A DNA stretch of 64,000 nt, taken from NCBI GenBank assembly GCA_001784555.1, contig MFRM01000013.1, forward strand, positions 1 through 64,000, given 5' to 3'. The stretch's first letter is position 1, and each line of letters begins with the position of its first letter. The notes under the pieces were generated by a model. The model made no database searches, was not told where the DNA came from, and saw only the letters and a program-made list of their open reading frames with translations. A program made the translations under genes and the position numbers. Source of the stretch: Candidatus Melainabacteria bacterium RIFCSPHIGHO2_02_FULL_34_12. Lineage in GTDB: Bacteria; Cyanobacteriota; Vampirovibrionia; 2-02-FULL-35-15. Of the stretch, positions 11,817 through 62,546 are shown piece by piece.

Positions 11817-11843
11817 GTAGAGACATGCCATTGGCATGTCTCT
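11817..11843. repeat. GTAGAGAC-type palindromic repeat, copy 2
   Basis: GTAG is followed by a 12-bp inverted repeat (AGAGACATGCCA / TGGCATGTCTCT) with one central base. It lies just upstream of the yebC start and creates an apparent in-frame upstream ATG. Confidence 0.75.
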
Positions 11844-11887
11844 TGTGAATTAGTTTACCATCTCATTTTATTTATTCGTATATTTTT

Positions 11888-11914
11888 GTAGAGGCATGGT
11901 TTCCATGCCTCTAT
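11888..11914. repeat. GTAGAGGC-type palindromic repeat, copy 3
   Basis: TAGAGGCATGG and CCATGCCTCTA form an 11-bp stem around TTT. It sits 45 bases from copy 2 in the yebC/secF divergent intergenic region. No T-tract follows, so it is unlikely to be a simple terminator. Confidence 0.75.
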
Positions 11915-16804: not shown

Positions 16805-18622
16805 TTACAATTTTATTGCAGAGCAATTTTGCTCCCATTTAAGAGTTTTATTTATTCCATATTCAGAAGATACGTCTTCATTTACAAGAAATACCTTTAC
16901 AAACTCTAACTTACTTTTTTGTTTTTCAGATTTATTCCAATTCTTGCATGCATAAGCTGTATAGTTAAATGCATTTATATCATATCCTGGGTACAGTGAA
17001 ATATTTAATGAGTCTTCAAAATAATTTTTCCAGAATCTATTTTTATAGTAGGTGCTTAAAAAATCCGGTTTTCTCCAGCTAATTTTTTCTTTATATCGAA
17101 GTAAGTTATATTCTTTTCCATCATTAAAGATTCCTTGTACTAAATACCATTTTATGTTTCTGTCTTTTGTGCTGATTGGAGCAGATTTATACCATGGTTG
17201 TTCAATATTTAGCAATGTGCCTAAAGATTTTAAATTGTCTGGAATTTTATACTTTCCATATATATTTTCCACATTTGAAAAAATTATAAAAATCATGAAT
17301 ATTACAATAAATATTTTTTCACAATCATTTTGCTCTATATTTATTTTTCTGAATTTTAATGATGAAATTATTCGAGAACCTAAAAATCTGTTACTTGCAA
17401 TTTTTTCGTAAATCATGGTTCCATATTGCACTATAGGTCCAAATCTAAAAAATGGCAGCAGGTAATAAAGTACAGGCGAGTTTTCACATAAAATAAGAAA
17501 TGCAGTGTATTTAGTATGAAGTTTTCCTGTATGATCCATGACGACCCAGGAATTTTCTTTTTGCATTACCTCGTAAACCTTTAAATCATCTTGTGCTGGC
17601 AGTATCTGTGTCTCAGGAATGAGGAAAAATGTTCTTATAATCAGGACCATTTTCTTGCAAAAACCACACATACCGTCAAAATAAATTTTTATCTGTAGAG
17701 GCGTTTCGCGAAACGCCTCTACAGGTGTTTTTAGTTTTTTAGTGAATGAATCCCAGAACCTTTCAGGTAATAATATAAATAATGCTGCAATATTTACCCA
17801 CGGCAAAAATCCACTGTCAAAAAATACAATTAAACAAAGATTTAATAAAGTATAAACTCCTATTGAAAAAAGACGGACTTGAGAAGTAAATATTAGTGGC
17901 AGCAAAAATAAAGGACTTAATAATGCAAGCCATCTTACTGAATGTGTAATAAGTTTTAAATATGAAATAGGCAGATGTGTAGCAAGGTAAGTGCTTAAAG
18001 GAGTTCCATCCTGAACTGAGGTGGCAAGACTTAAAATAGCTTCGCCGCCTAACCATTTAACGTCTTGTTTTAAAGCAAAAGAAGTAAATAAATATACAGA
18101 GATTATTTGAATATATATTGCAATAGACGACAGGGAAAAATAAACAGATGAAAAGATTTTATCTGATGTGTTTAATGCATTATCAATGGAATATTTTGCT
18201 CCCAGCGGCAAAAACATCCCCCAAAAAAGAAGAAGACTAAGCAGGTAGTCCCCACTATCGTTAATAAATGAGCATCGGACATGAAGTGATGTCAGTAAAA
18301 TCCATGATATAAAAGTAACTAATCTTGTTCTATATCCAAATGCTAGTGCAAGCGCAAAGAATATTTCAATTATTAAAAGAACTAAAATAATTGAAGGTCT
18401 TCCATGGATTGCAAAAATACTTATATTCCATGCGTTGCTGTTTTGATTAAAAAATTGAGTTCTGGGCACTATACCATCATCAGAATAAAAAGCAGATACT
18501 ATTCCCAGTCTGGAGATTATATCAATGATAATTAAAACAGCCAGTAAAATCCTAAGAAATGCCAATGATCTTAAATCGATTCCAAAAAGCGCATTTATTT
18601 CTTTTTTATTTGTATTTTCCAT
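16805..18622 (-). CDS. HTTM membrane protein fused to DCC (DUF393) thiol-redox domain
   Basis: 605 residues. The N-terminal half (about 1-295) carries many hydrophobic helices with HTTM features (FGIDLRSLAFLRI, FGYRTRLVTFISW, LLFWGMFLPLG), the domain related to vitamin-K-dependent gamma-carboxylase. A DCC-type thioredoxin-like domain follows (about 312-430) with IYFDGMCGFCKK, a CxxC-like redox motif. A soluble C-terminal region follows a further membrane segment near 445-460. The linker at about 300-310 is encoded by a 32-bp perfect palindrome. Start and stop overlap the upstream HTTM gene by one base (TAATG). Activity unknown; a redox-linked membrane modification enzyme is inferred. Confidence 0.8.
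   Translation of the reverse strand: MENTNKKEINALFGIDLRSLAFLRILLAVLIIIDIISRLGIVSAFYSDDGIVPRTQFFNQNSNAWNISIFAIHGRPSIILVLLIIEIFFALALAFGYRTRLVTFISWILLTSLHVRCSFINDSGDYLLSLLLFWGMFLPLGAKYSIDNALNTSDKIFSSVYFSLSSIAIYIQIISVYLFTSFALKQDVKWLGGEAILSLATSVQDGTPLSTYLATHLPISYLKLITHSVRWLALLSPLFLLPLIFTSQVRLFSIGVYTLLNLCLIVFFDSGFLPWVNIAALFILLPERFWDSFTKKLKTPVEAFRETPLQIKIYFDGMCGFCKKMVLIIRTFFLIPETQILPAQDDLKVYEVMQKENSWVVMDHTGKLHTKYTAFLILCENSPVLYYLLPFFRFGPIVQYGTMIYEKIASNRFLGSRIISSLKFRKINIEQNDCEKIFIVIFMIFIIFSNVENIYGKYKIPDNLKSLGTLLNIEQPWYKSAPISTKDRNIKWYLVQGIFNDGKEYNLLRYKEKISWRKPDFLSTYYKNRFWKNYFEDSLNISLYPGYDINAFNYTAYACKNWNKSEKQKSKLEFVKVFLVNEDVSSEYGINKTLKWEQNCSAIKL
17693..17724. repeat. GTAGAGGC-type palindrome, copy 4, in frame within a gene
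   Basis: A 32-base perfect palindrome: CTGTAGAGGCGTTTCG followed immediately by its reverse complement. It is read in frame as PVEAFRETPLQ between the HTTM and DCC domains, and shares GTAGAGGC ends with the intergenic copies. Confidence 0.9.
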
Positions 18623-20466
18623 TAATTAGTTTTTTCCTGACTTTTACTTTCATCTACTAAATTTTTAATTCGGGTATTTGTATTATTTGCTTCCTCATTT
18701 CTGCCTTGTAATCTTTGGATGGCTTCAATTGCAGTAAGTATTTGCGTAAGTCGTACGTCATTTGCGCCATATTCGACCCCAAGTAATTCAAGAGCCTTTT
18801 TGTAAAGGATCTCGGCTTCAGAGTATTTTTGTTGGTAAATAAAAAGAGAAGCATTGCTGTAAAGATCAATCACAGCTGTAATAGCATTTCCTTCTGATTT
18901 TTTAACTACTTCATTTAATATTTCATCTACGCTTCTTTGACTGTAAAAGCAATACTGTTTCCAGACAAAACTTTTTTCTGGTCTTACAAACTTGTGATTT
19001 GGTTTAGGATCCCACTTCATGAAGTATATATCGAACTCTTGGAGCTCTTTATCCCCTTTATGAGTGTTGTTCCATTCTCTACAAAGATTACCTGCATAGT
19101 ACGGCAAATTCGGCTGGTATGTGGGATCAGCTATAACAGAGAGAATGTATCTTCTCCAGTTTCTGTTTTTATACATTTCAGAACCAATTTCTGGCTTATC
19201 CCATTTTACTGATTGTCCGTTTCTAAATATATCTATTTCAGAACCGTCTTTAAGCTTGCCTACTGATACTGGCCAACCGCTTGACCAGCCTCCTGGAGCA
19301 GTATACATGCCCCACATCTGATCTATGCTTAGAAAACTTATTAAGTACATGAAAGGACGCGGAAAGTCATATTTTTTTGGATCAACAGACCATAAATTTA
19401 TAGCAAGAACACTAAAGAGAAAATATGTAGCAAGAACATTACTTAATAAAGATGACTTTAAGTTTATAGTACTGACTCTTTTGTCTTTTATTAAAAAATT
19501 TGAGAAAAAATTACTTAATAATAAATCTATTTTTTCCCAAAACCAGCTCGGGAGAAAATGCAGTGCTGCTGCGCTGGATACCAGATGAAAAATTTCAAGA
19601 TCTATGCAGATTCCAAAACAAATATGCATAAAAACATAGCCAATTACAGAAATTGTACGAATGGGACCGTTAAAGACAGGTATAAAAAAAAGTAAAGGAC
19701 CTAAGCTTTCAAAAGCTATCACTGAATTGGTCATAAAATGAAGTACATCCATTGGTAGTTCAAACACTAATTTACTGAAGTATGTTTCCAGGGAAACATT
19801 TGTAATTGCATAATAAACAGCAGTGCCATCTCTCCATGTTTCATTTCTTAGCTTAAGTATTATTGAAAACCAGTAAATAAAAGCAAATTGCAGACAGTAA
19901 GCAGCACTTCCCATTGAAAAAAATCTCTTAGGCAGTTCTTCTTTTGATTTATTCATTAAGCTATCAATTGAAAAGCAGGCTCCAAGAGGTAAAAGCATTC
20001 CCCAGAACAATAAAAGTCTCAGTTCAAAATCTCCTCCATCTAATGCCAGTGCATCTCTATGTTCAAGAGAAATAAGAAAAAACCAGGAAAGAAAGGTCAT
20101 TAATTTTGTGCGATAACCAATTAAAAGCAAAAAAGCAAAGATAGCTGCAAGGAGAAATAATATTGCTTGTATCTCAACTCTTCCGCTTATAAAGTGAATC
20201 GAGTATGACCAAATATGTATATAATTTACTGCTAAGCTTCGTGGCATTAAGCCAGTGTCGTTATAAAAAATATTCAGATCAGGAAATCGATTTAAAAGAT
20301 CAGCCAAAATGACAAATGCAACCACTATCCGGAATAATGCCAGCGATCTTAAATCAAATCCAAAAAGTTCTTCAGCCTTGCTATCTTTATTTTTTAAACT
20401 TCGCCAAATATAAACAGTGAATACAATAGTAATGATAATTAATAAACGTATTGCTTGTGATTCCAT
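18622..20466 (-). CDS. HTTM membrane protein with C-terminal TPR-like region
   Basis: About 614 residues from ATG 20466 (MESQAIRLL). An alternative GTG at 20502 has AAAGGA upstream but overlaps the previous gene. The frame holds HTTM features (FGFDLRSLALFRI, IGYRTKLMTFLSW, LLFWGMLLPLG) and many membrane helices, then a long soluble region rich in Trp and charged residues. At the C-terminus is a TPR-like pair of helices (QQKYSEAEILYKKALELLG) resembling the TPR lipoprotein two genes upstream. Paralog of the following HTTM-DCC gene but without the DCC domain. Function unknown. Confidence 0.8.
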   Translation of the reverse strand: MESQAIRLLIIITIVFTVYIWRSLKNKDSKAEELFGFDLRSLALFRIVVAFVILADLLNRFPDLNIFYNDTGLMPRSLAVNYIHIWSYSIHFISGRVEIQAILFLLAAIFAFLLLIGYRTKLMTFLSWFFLISLEHRDALALDGGDFELRLLLFWGMLLPLGACFSIDSLMNKSKEELPKRFFSMGSAAYCLQFAFIYWFSIILKLRNETWRDGTAVYYAITNVSLETYFSKLVFELPMDVLHFMTNSVIAFESLGPLLFFIPVFNGPIRTISVIGYVFMHICFGICIDLEIFHLVSSAAALHFLPSWFWEKIDLLLSNFFSNFLIKDKRVSTINLKSSLLSNVLATYFLFSVLAINLWSVDPKKYDFPRPFMYLISFLSIDQMWGMYTAPGGWSSGWPVSVGKLKDGSEIDIFRNGQSVKWDKPEIGSEMYKNRNWRRYILSVIADPTYQPNLPYYAGNLCREWNNTHKGDKELQEFDIYFMKWDPKPNHKFVRPEKSFVWKQYCFYSQRSVDEILNEVVKKSEGNAITAVIDLYSNASLFIYQQKYSEAEILYKKALELLGVEYGANDVRLTQILTAIEAIQRLQGRNEEANNTNTRIKNLVDESKSQEKTN

Positions 20467-20473
20467 AATTAAA

Positions 20474-22492
20474 TTATTCCAATGCCATTGCAACAATTTC
20501 ACTTATGTCCTTTACTTGAGGAGGAGACTGGCTTTTATCTAAAGTTTTTGCTGTTTCCAGCATTATGGTACAGAATGGACAGGCACTTGCTACTATTTTT
20601 GCTTTTGCTTCTTTTACCTCATTTAATCTCATGACATTAATTTGTTTTCCGGGAGCTTCATACCAAAGTTGTGCTCCTCCGCCACCGCAACATGTGCCTT
20701 TTTCTTTTGAGTTTTCCATCTCAATGTATTTAATATTTGGAATTTTATTTAATATGTTTCTTGGAGCATCATATTGACCGTTATGACGCCCAAGATAACA
20801 TGAATCATGATAAGTAATCTCTTCTTTTATTTCTTTAGTCATTGAAAGTTTGCCCAGCTTTATAAGTTCCCAGATAATTTCAGTATGATGAAATACCGCA
20901 GTATCATTTAAACCAAATTCAGGATATTCATTTTTAAACGTGTTAAAACAATGCGGACAGTGTGTAATTATTTTTTTTACTTTTGCATTTTTAAAGGTTT
21001 CAATATTTTTCAGAGCTAATTCCTGGAAAAGTCCTTCATCACCGGCTCTTCTTGCAGTATCACCGTTGCATTTTTCTTTCTTTCCTAGAATTGCAAATTT
21101 TATGTTTGCCTTTTTAAGCAGAGTAACCATAGTTTTTGCAATATTTTGATTCCTGCTGTCATATGAACCTGCACATCCAATCCAGTATAAATATTCAAAA
21201 TCGTTTGTGCTTTCAATTTTTGGAACATCAAGCCCTTCTGTCCATTTTTCACGATCTTCAGGAGGTTGTCCCCAGGGATTAAAACGTGACCTGATATTTT
21301 TTAACGTGTTCAATAAATTATTGGGAGCTTTATTCCCTCCTATTAAAGTTCTTCTAAGGTCAATGATTTTTGAAAGTGGATTTATTCCTACAGGGCAAGC
21401 TTCTACACATGCCCTGCATGAAGTACATGACCATAGTGTTTCCTGTGAAATTTGGGATGGTAAATCAATATCAGAGCGGGCAGAAGAACCTTTGTAACCA
21501 TGCGGAAACATTGGTTTTTCATACATAATTTGTTTTAAGTCAAGAATTACCCATTTTGGTGAAAGTGGTTTATCAGTATTTGTTGCAGGGCAAACTTCAT
21601 GACATTTACCGCAGGCAGTACATGAATCCAGATCCATTAAATCTTTCCAGGTAAAATCTTCTATCTTATTCACTGTTTGTGCGAAATCCTCCGGCGGATT
21701 TTCCATGGCAAGAATTTCTACGAGATTAAATGGAGTATTTAATGCACCATTGGGTTTTAAATCCTTAAAAAATATATTTACCGGACTTATAAACATATGA
21801 CTAAACTTTGTATATGGAATTAATGCGACAAAGGAAAAAGTTTGAATTGAATGCAGCCACCATAATGTAAAATGAATGTTTTTTTGACTCTCATAACTTA
21901 AAGGACTAAATAAAGCACCAATCATAGCTCCTATTGGTGCATAAGGTTCAAACTGATTTGTAGCAGATTGTCTGATCCCTTCAATTAAAAACCCAAGTAC
22001 AACGAATAAAAAAAAATAAGTGATTTGTATCCAGTCATTGTGATAATTATCAAGTCTTTTTGGTCTTTTTATGTATCGGATATATGCAAAAAATCCAAGT
22101 CCAATAAGCATTAAAACACCCGATAAATCCATTAAAAGTGAGTAAGTCTTATAAAATACTCCATGAAAAAAATATTCAGGCATTCTGTCCTGAACTGTTA
22201 AGATATCAGTTCCAATCCACAACACAAAAAAACCATAAAAGACCAGTATGTGTGCAATTATAGGGAGTTTTTCTTTTCCCCAGTTTTTATGGAGAAAAGC
22301 CTGCTCAAACATAATTAGAATACGGTTGGTTATTTCAAAAAAATCATTTTTTCTTTTACCTTGTGACCAGGTTTTTAATTTGAGGTAGAATCCATAAAAA
22401 AAGAATACCAGTGAAATAAAAAATAAGGAATAAAATATTTCTTTATAGTATGGGAGATCATGAATATTCCACCATAGTCCGCGTGTTTCCAT
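20474..22492 (-). CDS. EtfD/HdrD-like membrane Fe-S oxidoreductase
   Basis: 672 residues. The N-terminal part (to about 235) has five or so membrane helices with His residues, like the heme-b subunit of HdrE/NarI. Two 4Fe-4S motifs follow, CTACGKCHEVCP near 286 and CTSCRACVEACP near 354. Then come two CCG (DUF3483-type) domains ending in CCGGGGAQLW near 600 and a final CPFC. This is the Rv0338c-like architecture; such EtfD proteins pass electrons from ETF to menaquinone. The ETF genes lie at 48.9-50.9 kb together with a separate ETF-QO, so two routes may exist. It is followed by two HTTM genes. Confidence 0.88.
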   Translation of the reverse strand: METRGLWWNIHDLPYYKEIFYSLFFISLVFFFYGFYLKLKTWSQGKRKNDFFEITNRILIMFEQAFLHKNWGKEKLPIIAHILVFYGFFVLWIGTDILTVQDRMPEYFFHGVFYKTYSLLMDLSGVLMLIGLGFFAYIRYIKRPKRLDNYHNDWIQITYFFLFVVLGFLIEGIRQSATNQFEPYAPIGAMIGALFSPLSYESQKNIHFTLWWLHSIQTFSFVALIPYTKFSHMFISPVNIFFKDLKPNGALNTPFNLVEILAMENPPEDFAQTVNKIEDFTWKDLMDLDSCTACGKCHEVCPATNTDKPLSPKWVILDLKQIMYEKPMFPHGYKGSSARSDIDLPSQISQETLWSCTSCRACVEACPVGINPLSKIIDLRRTLIGGNKAPNNLLNTLKNIRSRFNPWGQPPEDREKWTEGLDVPKIESTNDFEYLYWIGCAGSYDSRNQNIAKTMVTLLKKANIKFAILGKKEKCNGDTARRAGDEGLFQELALKNIETFKNAKVKKIITHCPHCFNTFKNEYPEFGLNDTAVFHHTEIIWELIKLGKLSMTKEIKEEITYHDSCYLGRHNGQYDAPRNILNKIPNIKYIEMENSKEKGTCCGGGGAQLWYEAPGKQINVMRLNEVKEAKAKIVASACPFCTIMLETAKTLDKSQSPPQVKDISEIVAMALE

Positions 22493-25689: not shown

Positions 25690-25761
25690 AGTAACAATAT
25701 TATTCCTTTCTTTTTAATTTTTAAACCCTCGCACCAATGTGTTTCTCTGCTTCTTTATTTT

Positions 25762-25787
25762 GGGCAAACACATTGGTATGCCCCTAC
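25762..25787. repeat. GTAGGGGC-type palindromic repeat, copy 5
   Basis: GTAGGGGCAT...TTTGCCC on the minus strand. A further 12-bp inverted partner (ACCAATGTGTTT at 25733-25744 against AAACACATTGGT at 25766-25777) lies on the other side. The stop codon (TAG) of the minus-strand gene ending at 25784 is the TAG of the repeat. Confidence 0.7.
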
Positions 25788-62518: not shown

Positions 62519-62546
62519 GTAGGGACTTACCATGGTAAGCCCCTAC
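62519..62546. repeat. GTAGGGGC-type palindromic repeat, copy 8
   Basis: GTAGGGACTTACC and GGTAAGCCCCTAC around AT, with one mismatch in the stem. It lies between the CBS gene and the channel-like gene, next to another hairpin. Confidence 0.75.

Follow-up and report, generated by a model that had tools for sequence, protein, structure and literature searches.

A REP-like dispersed palindrome in the interdomain linker of an HTTM–DCC fusion gene

The palindrome and its host gene

The window considered here, a 64-kb stretch of DNA, contains a gene for an HTTM–DCC fusion protein, and at the boundary between the two domains of that protein lies a perfect palindrome (Table 1). Its arms, 17693-17708 and 17709-17724, are 16 nucleotides each, are 100% complementary, and have no spacer between them. 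The outer CT/AG pairs (2 bp on each side of the core) have no conserved counterpart in the flanks of other copies and thus fall outside the repeat, so that the element proper is the 28-bp core. An earlier note on this DNA had described a perfect 32-bp palindrome placed at the domain boundary and read in frame as PVEAFRETPLQ, and the complete pairing of the arms, the ORF, and the Pfam positions all agree with that description.

Table 1. Positions in the window of the fusion gene, its domains, the palindrome, and related copies
Feature	Position	Strand	Sequence or source
HTTM–DCC fusion protein, 605-aa ORF, conserved C-terminal region	16805..18622	(-)	
HTTM domain, residues 15-285, PF05090	17768..18580	(-)	Pfam
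DCC1-like thiol-disulfide oxidoreductase domain, residues 313-413, PF04134	17384..17686	(-)	Pfam
Codons of residues 300-310, PVEAFRETPLQ, interdomain linker	17693..17725	(-)	
Perfect palindrome, 32 bp	17693..17724	(.)	CTGTAGAGGCGTTTCGCGAAACGCCTCTACAG
Repeat core (family unit), 28 bp	17695..17722	(.)	GTAGAGGCGTTTCGCGAAACGCCTCTAC = GTAGAGGC-GTTTCGCGAAAC-GCCTCTAC
Relative at 5′ edge of YebC-like ORF	11817..11845	(.)	GTAGAGACATGCCATTGGCATGTCTCTTG; relaxed scan
Intergenic relative	11888..11914	(.)	GTAGAGGCATGGTTTCCATGCCTCTAT; relaxed scan
Intergenic relative, 13/14 pairs	62519..62546	(.)	GTAGGGACTTACCATGGTAAGCCCCTAC; relaxed scan

The peptide encoded by the palindrome lies between a helix (residues 287-296) and a strand (residues 312-315), in a lower-confidence stretch of the AlphaFold2 model, where pLDDT is ~69 for residues 301-310 and 85 and 93 on the two sides. 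These low values are consistent with a flexible linker. A search of Rfam returned sub-threshold matches only. Directly upstream of the fusion gene, at 18622-20502(-), is a second HTTM-like protein with C-terminal TPR-like repeats.

The repeat family and the age of the fusion

Within the window, the core GTAGAGGCGTTTCGCGAAACGCCTCTAC is the sole match to itself at up to 3 mismatches, and shuffles give an expectation of 0. A relaxed scan recovers the more distant relatives listed in Table 1, two of which lie between ORFs while the third is at an ORF's 5′ edge, in keeping with the earlier description of the repeat as intergenic elsewhere in the window. In the whole genome, the core has 4 close relatives elsewhere at up to 3 mismatches. 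The family to which they belong has the consensus GTAGRGGC-N11/12-GCCYCTAC, in units of 27-28 bp. Copies across the genome, which the earlier note had suggested looking for, are readily found: the pattern GTAGRGGC-N4..30-GCCYCTAC has 33 exact-arm copies in the 2.11-Mb genome, against 0 for the reversed control, and the 28-bp form at up to 3 mismatches occurs 134 times versus 9 for the control. Among the matches listed from nine genomes of the family, 49 of 71 exact-arm 28-mers have perfectly palindromic interiors; among the same matches, these 49 interiors are built from 23 half-words, and 34 of them use half-words found in more than one genome. Other cyanobacteria also hold copies (up to 76 in one genome), and records of similar proteins come from Candidatus Melainabacteria and cyanobacteria, among others. 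A search for papers containing the literal repeat string found nothing relevant. Taken together, it is very probable that the window palindrome is one copy of a short, REP-like, dispersed mobile palindrome with GTAG/CTAC ends, belonging to the Cyanobacteriota/Melainabacteria lineage, that landed in the linker.

The linker was examined in an alignment of 77 homologues, which were picked for matching the query over both domains and whose number is silent on how frequent the fusion is. The spacing between W290 and Y314, both conserved, is 18 residues in most of these homologues and 24 in the window protein; leaving aside one protein without a DCC domain, the homologues range from 14 to 23. Their linker consensus is like LKTNERQGLKIYYDGDCGFC. 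The palindrome was sought in the linker DNA of the nearest homologues and not found, and it is absent from the fused relatives in genomes G002 and G005, so the comparison of homologues proposed earlier has a clear answer, that the linker does occur without the palindrome. Linker residues like PVEAFRETPLQ, whose conservation would by the earlier note have counted against its proposal, were looked for in homologues lacking the repeat and not found. Fused HTTM–DCC proteins without the palindrome occur in Melainabacteria, photosynthetic cyanobacteria, Gracilibacteria, and proteobacteria. Because the fusion is present without the palindrome in several phyla, it is the older of the two, and, as judged from these sequences, it long predates the arrival of the palindrome. 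The net gain in the window protein is 6 residues (18 bases), rather than the 10 expected for plain addition, which indicates that ~4 native residues were replaced. The earlier suggestion that an insertion was kept as linker holds insofar as a dispersed palindrome entered coding sequence and today makes up part of the linker, but not in the sense of a simple addition.

Several other origins of the palindrome can be weighed against this evidence. Ordinary codon evolution could have produced it by chance, a view that has the small size of the palindrome in its favor and nothing beyond that; given the shuffles and the 4 close relatives elsewhere in the genome, such an origin is vanishingly improbable, and the existence of a repeat family leads us to reject it. 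A more consequential proposal is that the palindrome joined separate HTTM and DCC genes, via recombination between copies flanking each. Its position exactly at the domain boundary is what such a history would produce, and relatives do have HTTM proteins that are not fused, as well as stand-alone DCC ORFs of ~133 aa. Against this, fused homologues in several phyla lack the palindrome yet can be aligned over their full length, with a linker that is shorter and conserved, and this makes the proposal highly improbable; for the fusion at hand, barring an independent fusion in this lineage, an origin via the palindrome is ruled out by these palindrome-free homologues, in which the linker is typically 18 residues, and the earlier idea that the repeat helped the fusion of two genes falls with it. 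Finally, selection in the HTTM–DCC gene might act on the palindrome as an RNA or DNA structure, for example to pause translation between the domains. For the mRNA, a 14-bp hairpin (-23.5 kcal/mol, z -6.4) is predicted at the domain boundary, as this explanation would have it, but any palindrome gives a hairpin, all HTTM–DCC homologues examined lack the palindrome, and copies lie in many unrelated proteins, inside domains too. We consider selection for structure unlikely.

Palindromes at shared loops of conserved proteins

To what extent the family is read as protein can be judged from 65 copies, a set chosen around exact or near-exact matches and therefore neither random nor genome-wide, of which 42 (about 40 read through) lie in ORFs of at least 140 aa, using the two stop-free frames; a few are at ORF ends and possibly extragenic. 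Judged by sequence motifs, the hosts presumably include QueG-, Ffh-, MiaB-, TrpC-, UDG-, and ArgS-like proteins. Orthologues for 25 sites in conserved genes came from five genomes that belong to the same family but to other genera, and were retrieved with a query of 2756 residues made up of pieces of this genome's own proteins. Another genus has a palindrome at the aligned loop at 16 of the 25 genic sites, by a lenient flag that is raised in 4% of random windows and whose hits include some decayed copies and may include a few spurious ones. With stricter matching, the count is 24 of 117 site windows, versus 86 of 4360 windows drawn at random from these loci (p ~1e-16, which is conservative because the random-window null contains real copies). 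The HTTM–DCC site itself is not among the shared sites. Where another genus has a palindrome at the same loop, its interior is usually different and still self-complementary.

Where orthologues lack the palindrome they are shorter, though not by a fixed amount; most site medians are 1-8 residues, and the outliers of -13, -5, and +14 represent loops with other changes. Since a clean insertion would produce a constant difference, native codons were lost, either at insertion or later. At L010, L011, L015, and L070_339, unit length or loop offset differs between genera, which would favor repeated landing at those sites. We tentatively advance the idea that certain of these loops may be standing landing sites. 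Palindromes would enter them at the expense of differing numbers of native codons and would in time give way, in situ, to other members of the family, so that site and frame persist across genera while the palindrome sequence turns over. If true, housekeeping proteins would be swapping segments of 10 residues much like cassettes.

The same pattern could arise from one old insertion per site, with pairing kept by compensatory or arm-to-arm change and without repeated landing. Borders and frame are the same across genera at many sites, in well-kept pairs the two sides have changed together at 77 positions without loss of pairing, versus 24 one-sided changes, and the interiors at L085 are similar across genera, all of which such a history would explain. 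Moreover, the flanking proteins are mostly 50-80% identical, so that silent positions are probably saturated; differing interiors are then compatible with descent, and interior distance alone cannot tell overwriting apart from an old insertion inherited with its pairing kept. Within that limit, the interior distances across genera, which are not detectably smaller at the same site than at different sites (0.534 versus 0.561, p 0.18), count against single descent. The differences in unit length or offset noted above speak against a single insertion per site, as does the drawing of interiors from few recurrent words common to several genomes. On balance, we regard single descent as possible, if somewhat doubtful.

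In a PrmC-like gene, L141 (G009) and L266 (G010) have ~20 extra residues in the loop aligned with the L090 palindrome, and these are encoded by other inverted repeats, containing GTCATTCCCGCGAAAGCGGGAATCC and GTCATTGCGAGGAAGGACGAAGTC; one loop is thus common to different repeat families. In L086 (1201-1228 and downstream), and in L274 (G006) at the L004 site, tandem partial palindrome copies lengthen the loop, reading GRDLLQQVST LLQQVST LPQQVST (DNA RRDVAYGGDVAYGGDVAYGGDVAC).

Relation to known palindromic elements and proposed mobilization

A close parallel is to GTAG-tagged REPs and their RAYT transposases (Di Nocera et al. 2013), which are multi-copy palindromes of 20-40 bp with a GTAG terminus; they are known in cyanobacteria, mostly between genes and in some cases inside ORFs, with RAYT genes in the same genomes (PMC3733652). 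The present family resembles them in its 27-28 bp units, its GTAGRGGC ends, and its multiple copies. However, the tag of GTAG REPs is at one end and unpaired (PMC3733652), whereas here, both in the window copy and in the exact-arm copies, GTAG pairs with CTAC, so that the unit is symmetrical; and those REPs are mostly intergenic, whereas about 40 of the 65 copies read here, a sample that is not genome-wide, lie in ORFs of at least 140 aa. Because an unpaired tag and intergenic predominance are absent, we do not file the family as a REP, and by analogy it may be called REP-like, working as a REP would. One case has been described in which different REPs occupy nearly the same position in orthologous genes, recB in two Xanthomonas (PMC3733652), and it resembles the many same-loop cases here. 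As to RAYT genes, several family genomes have RAYT-like ORFs, three of which hold a copy, but the copy counts correlate weakly.

Two other systems are comparable in different ways. Rickettsia palindromic elements (RPEs) are found in frame in unrelated protein-coding genes, where they are apparently tolerated (PMC10969869, PMC3733652), and the present family, compared by description, is likewise read in frame within protein genes. The RPEs of one report are ~150 bp (PMC10969869), and RPE-4 and RPE-6 are short and CGTC-tagged (PMC3733652). RPEs lose repeat identity over time (PMC6649704), whereas a paired interior is kept here in 49 of 71 exact-arm copies among the matches listed. In nematomorph mitochondria, functional genes contain perfect coding palindromes that have been gained and lost and whose pairing appears to be actively maintained (PMC6649704); in both the location inside functional genes and the maintenance of pairing our family resembles them. 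The nematomorph palindromes, however, reach 284 bp, and both of their arms encode conserved native residues (PMC6649704), whereas the present units are 27-28 bp and form a dispersed family with constant ends.

In-frame palindromes and GTAG REPs are thus already known, the former discussed so far mainly in Rickettsia and as scattered REPs; what is new is the reuse of the same loop with different interiors, and this family-wide pattern is of more interest than the single HTTM–DCC site. Different palindromes in the same loop of conserved proteins in different genera make it testable whether selfish DNA acts as a repeated supplier of loop sequence, and also how perfect pairing survives changes in the letters of a palindrome.

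RAYT-like ORFs are present in G000, G009, G007, and G010, and G003 has a divergent one. In three of six such ORFs (L053, L054, and L056), one and the same variable loop holds a perfect, in-frame GTAG palindrome. Copy numbers per genome are 33, 35, 18, 4, and 3 where RAYT-like genes occur and 4, 3, 1, 0, 0, and 6 where they do not (one-sided p 0.027, n=11), a weak correlation that is confounded by descent and that leaves IS200-type genes out of the RAYT counts. The 6 copies are in G006, where an IS200-type gene is the only one present; the genomes with 4 and 3 copies are G001 and G002, where no such gene was found.

We infer that the family may be mobilized by RAYT. A RAYT/IS200-type transposase would generate the copies, with a single-stranded hairpin as the probable intermediate. 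They would land frequently, and only those in frame in tolerant loops would survive, the encoded peptide being a tolerated spacer that need not serve the function of the host protein. Pairing could persist either through the overwriting of old copies by new ones or through the correction of one arm from the other.

The other three RAYT-like ORFs (L051, L052, and L055) carry a different type of palindrome, GGGCAAACACATTGGTTTGCCC and relatives, in frame in the same loop. An inverted repeat in the window at 25733-25787, ACCAATGTGTTT/AAACACATTGGT adjoining GTAGGGGC, resembles this second type.
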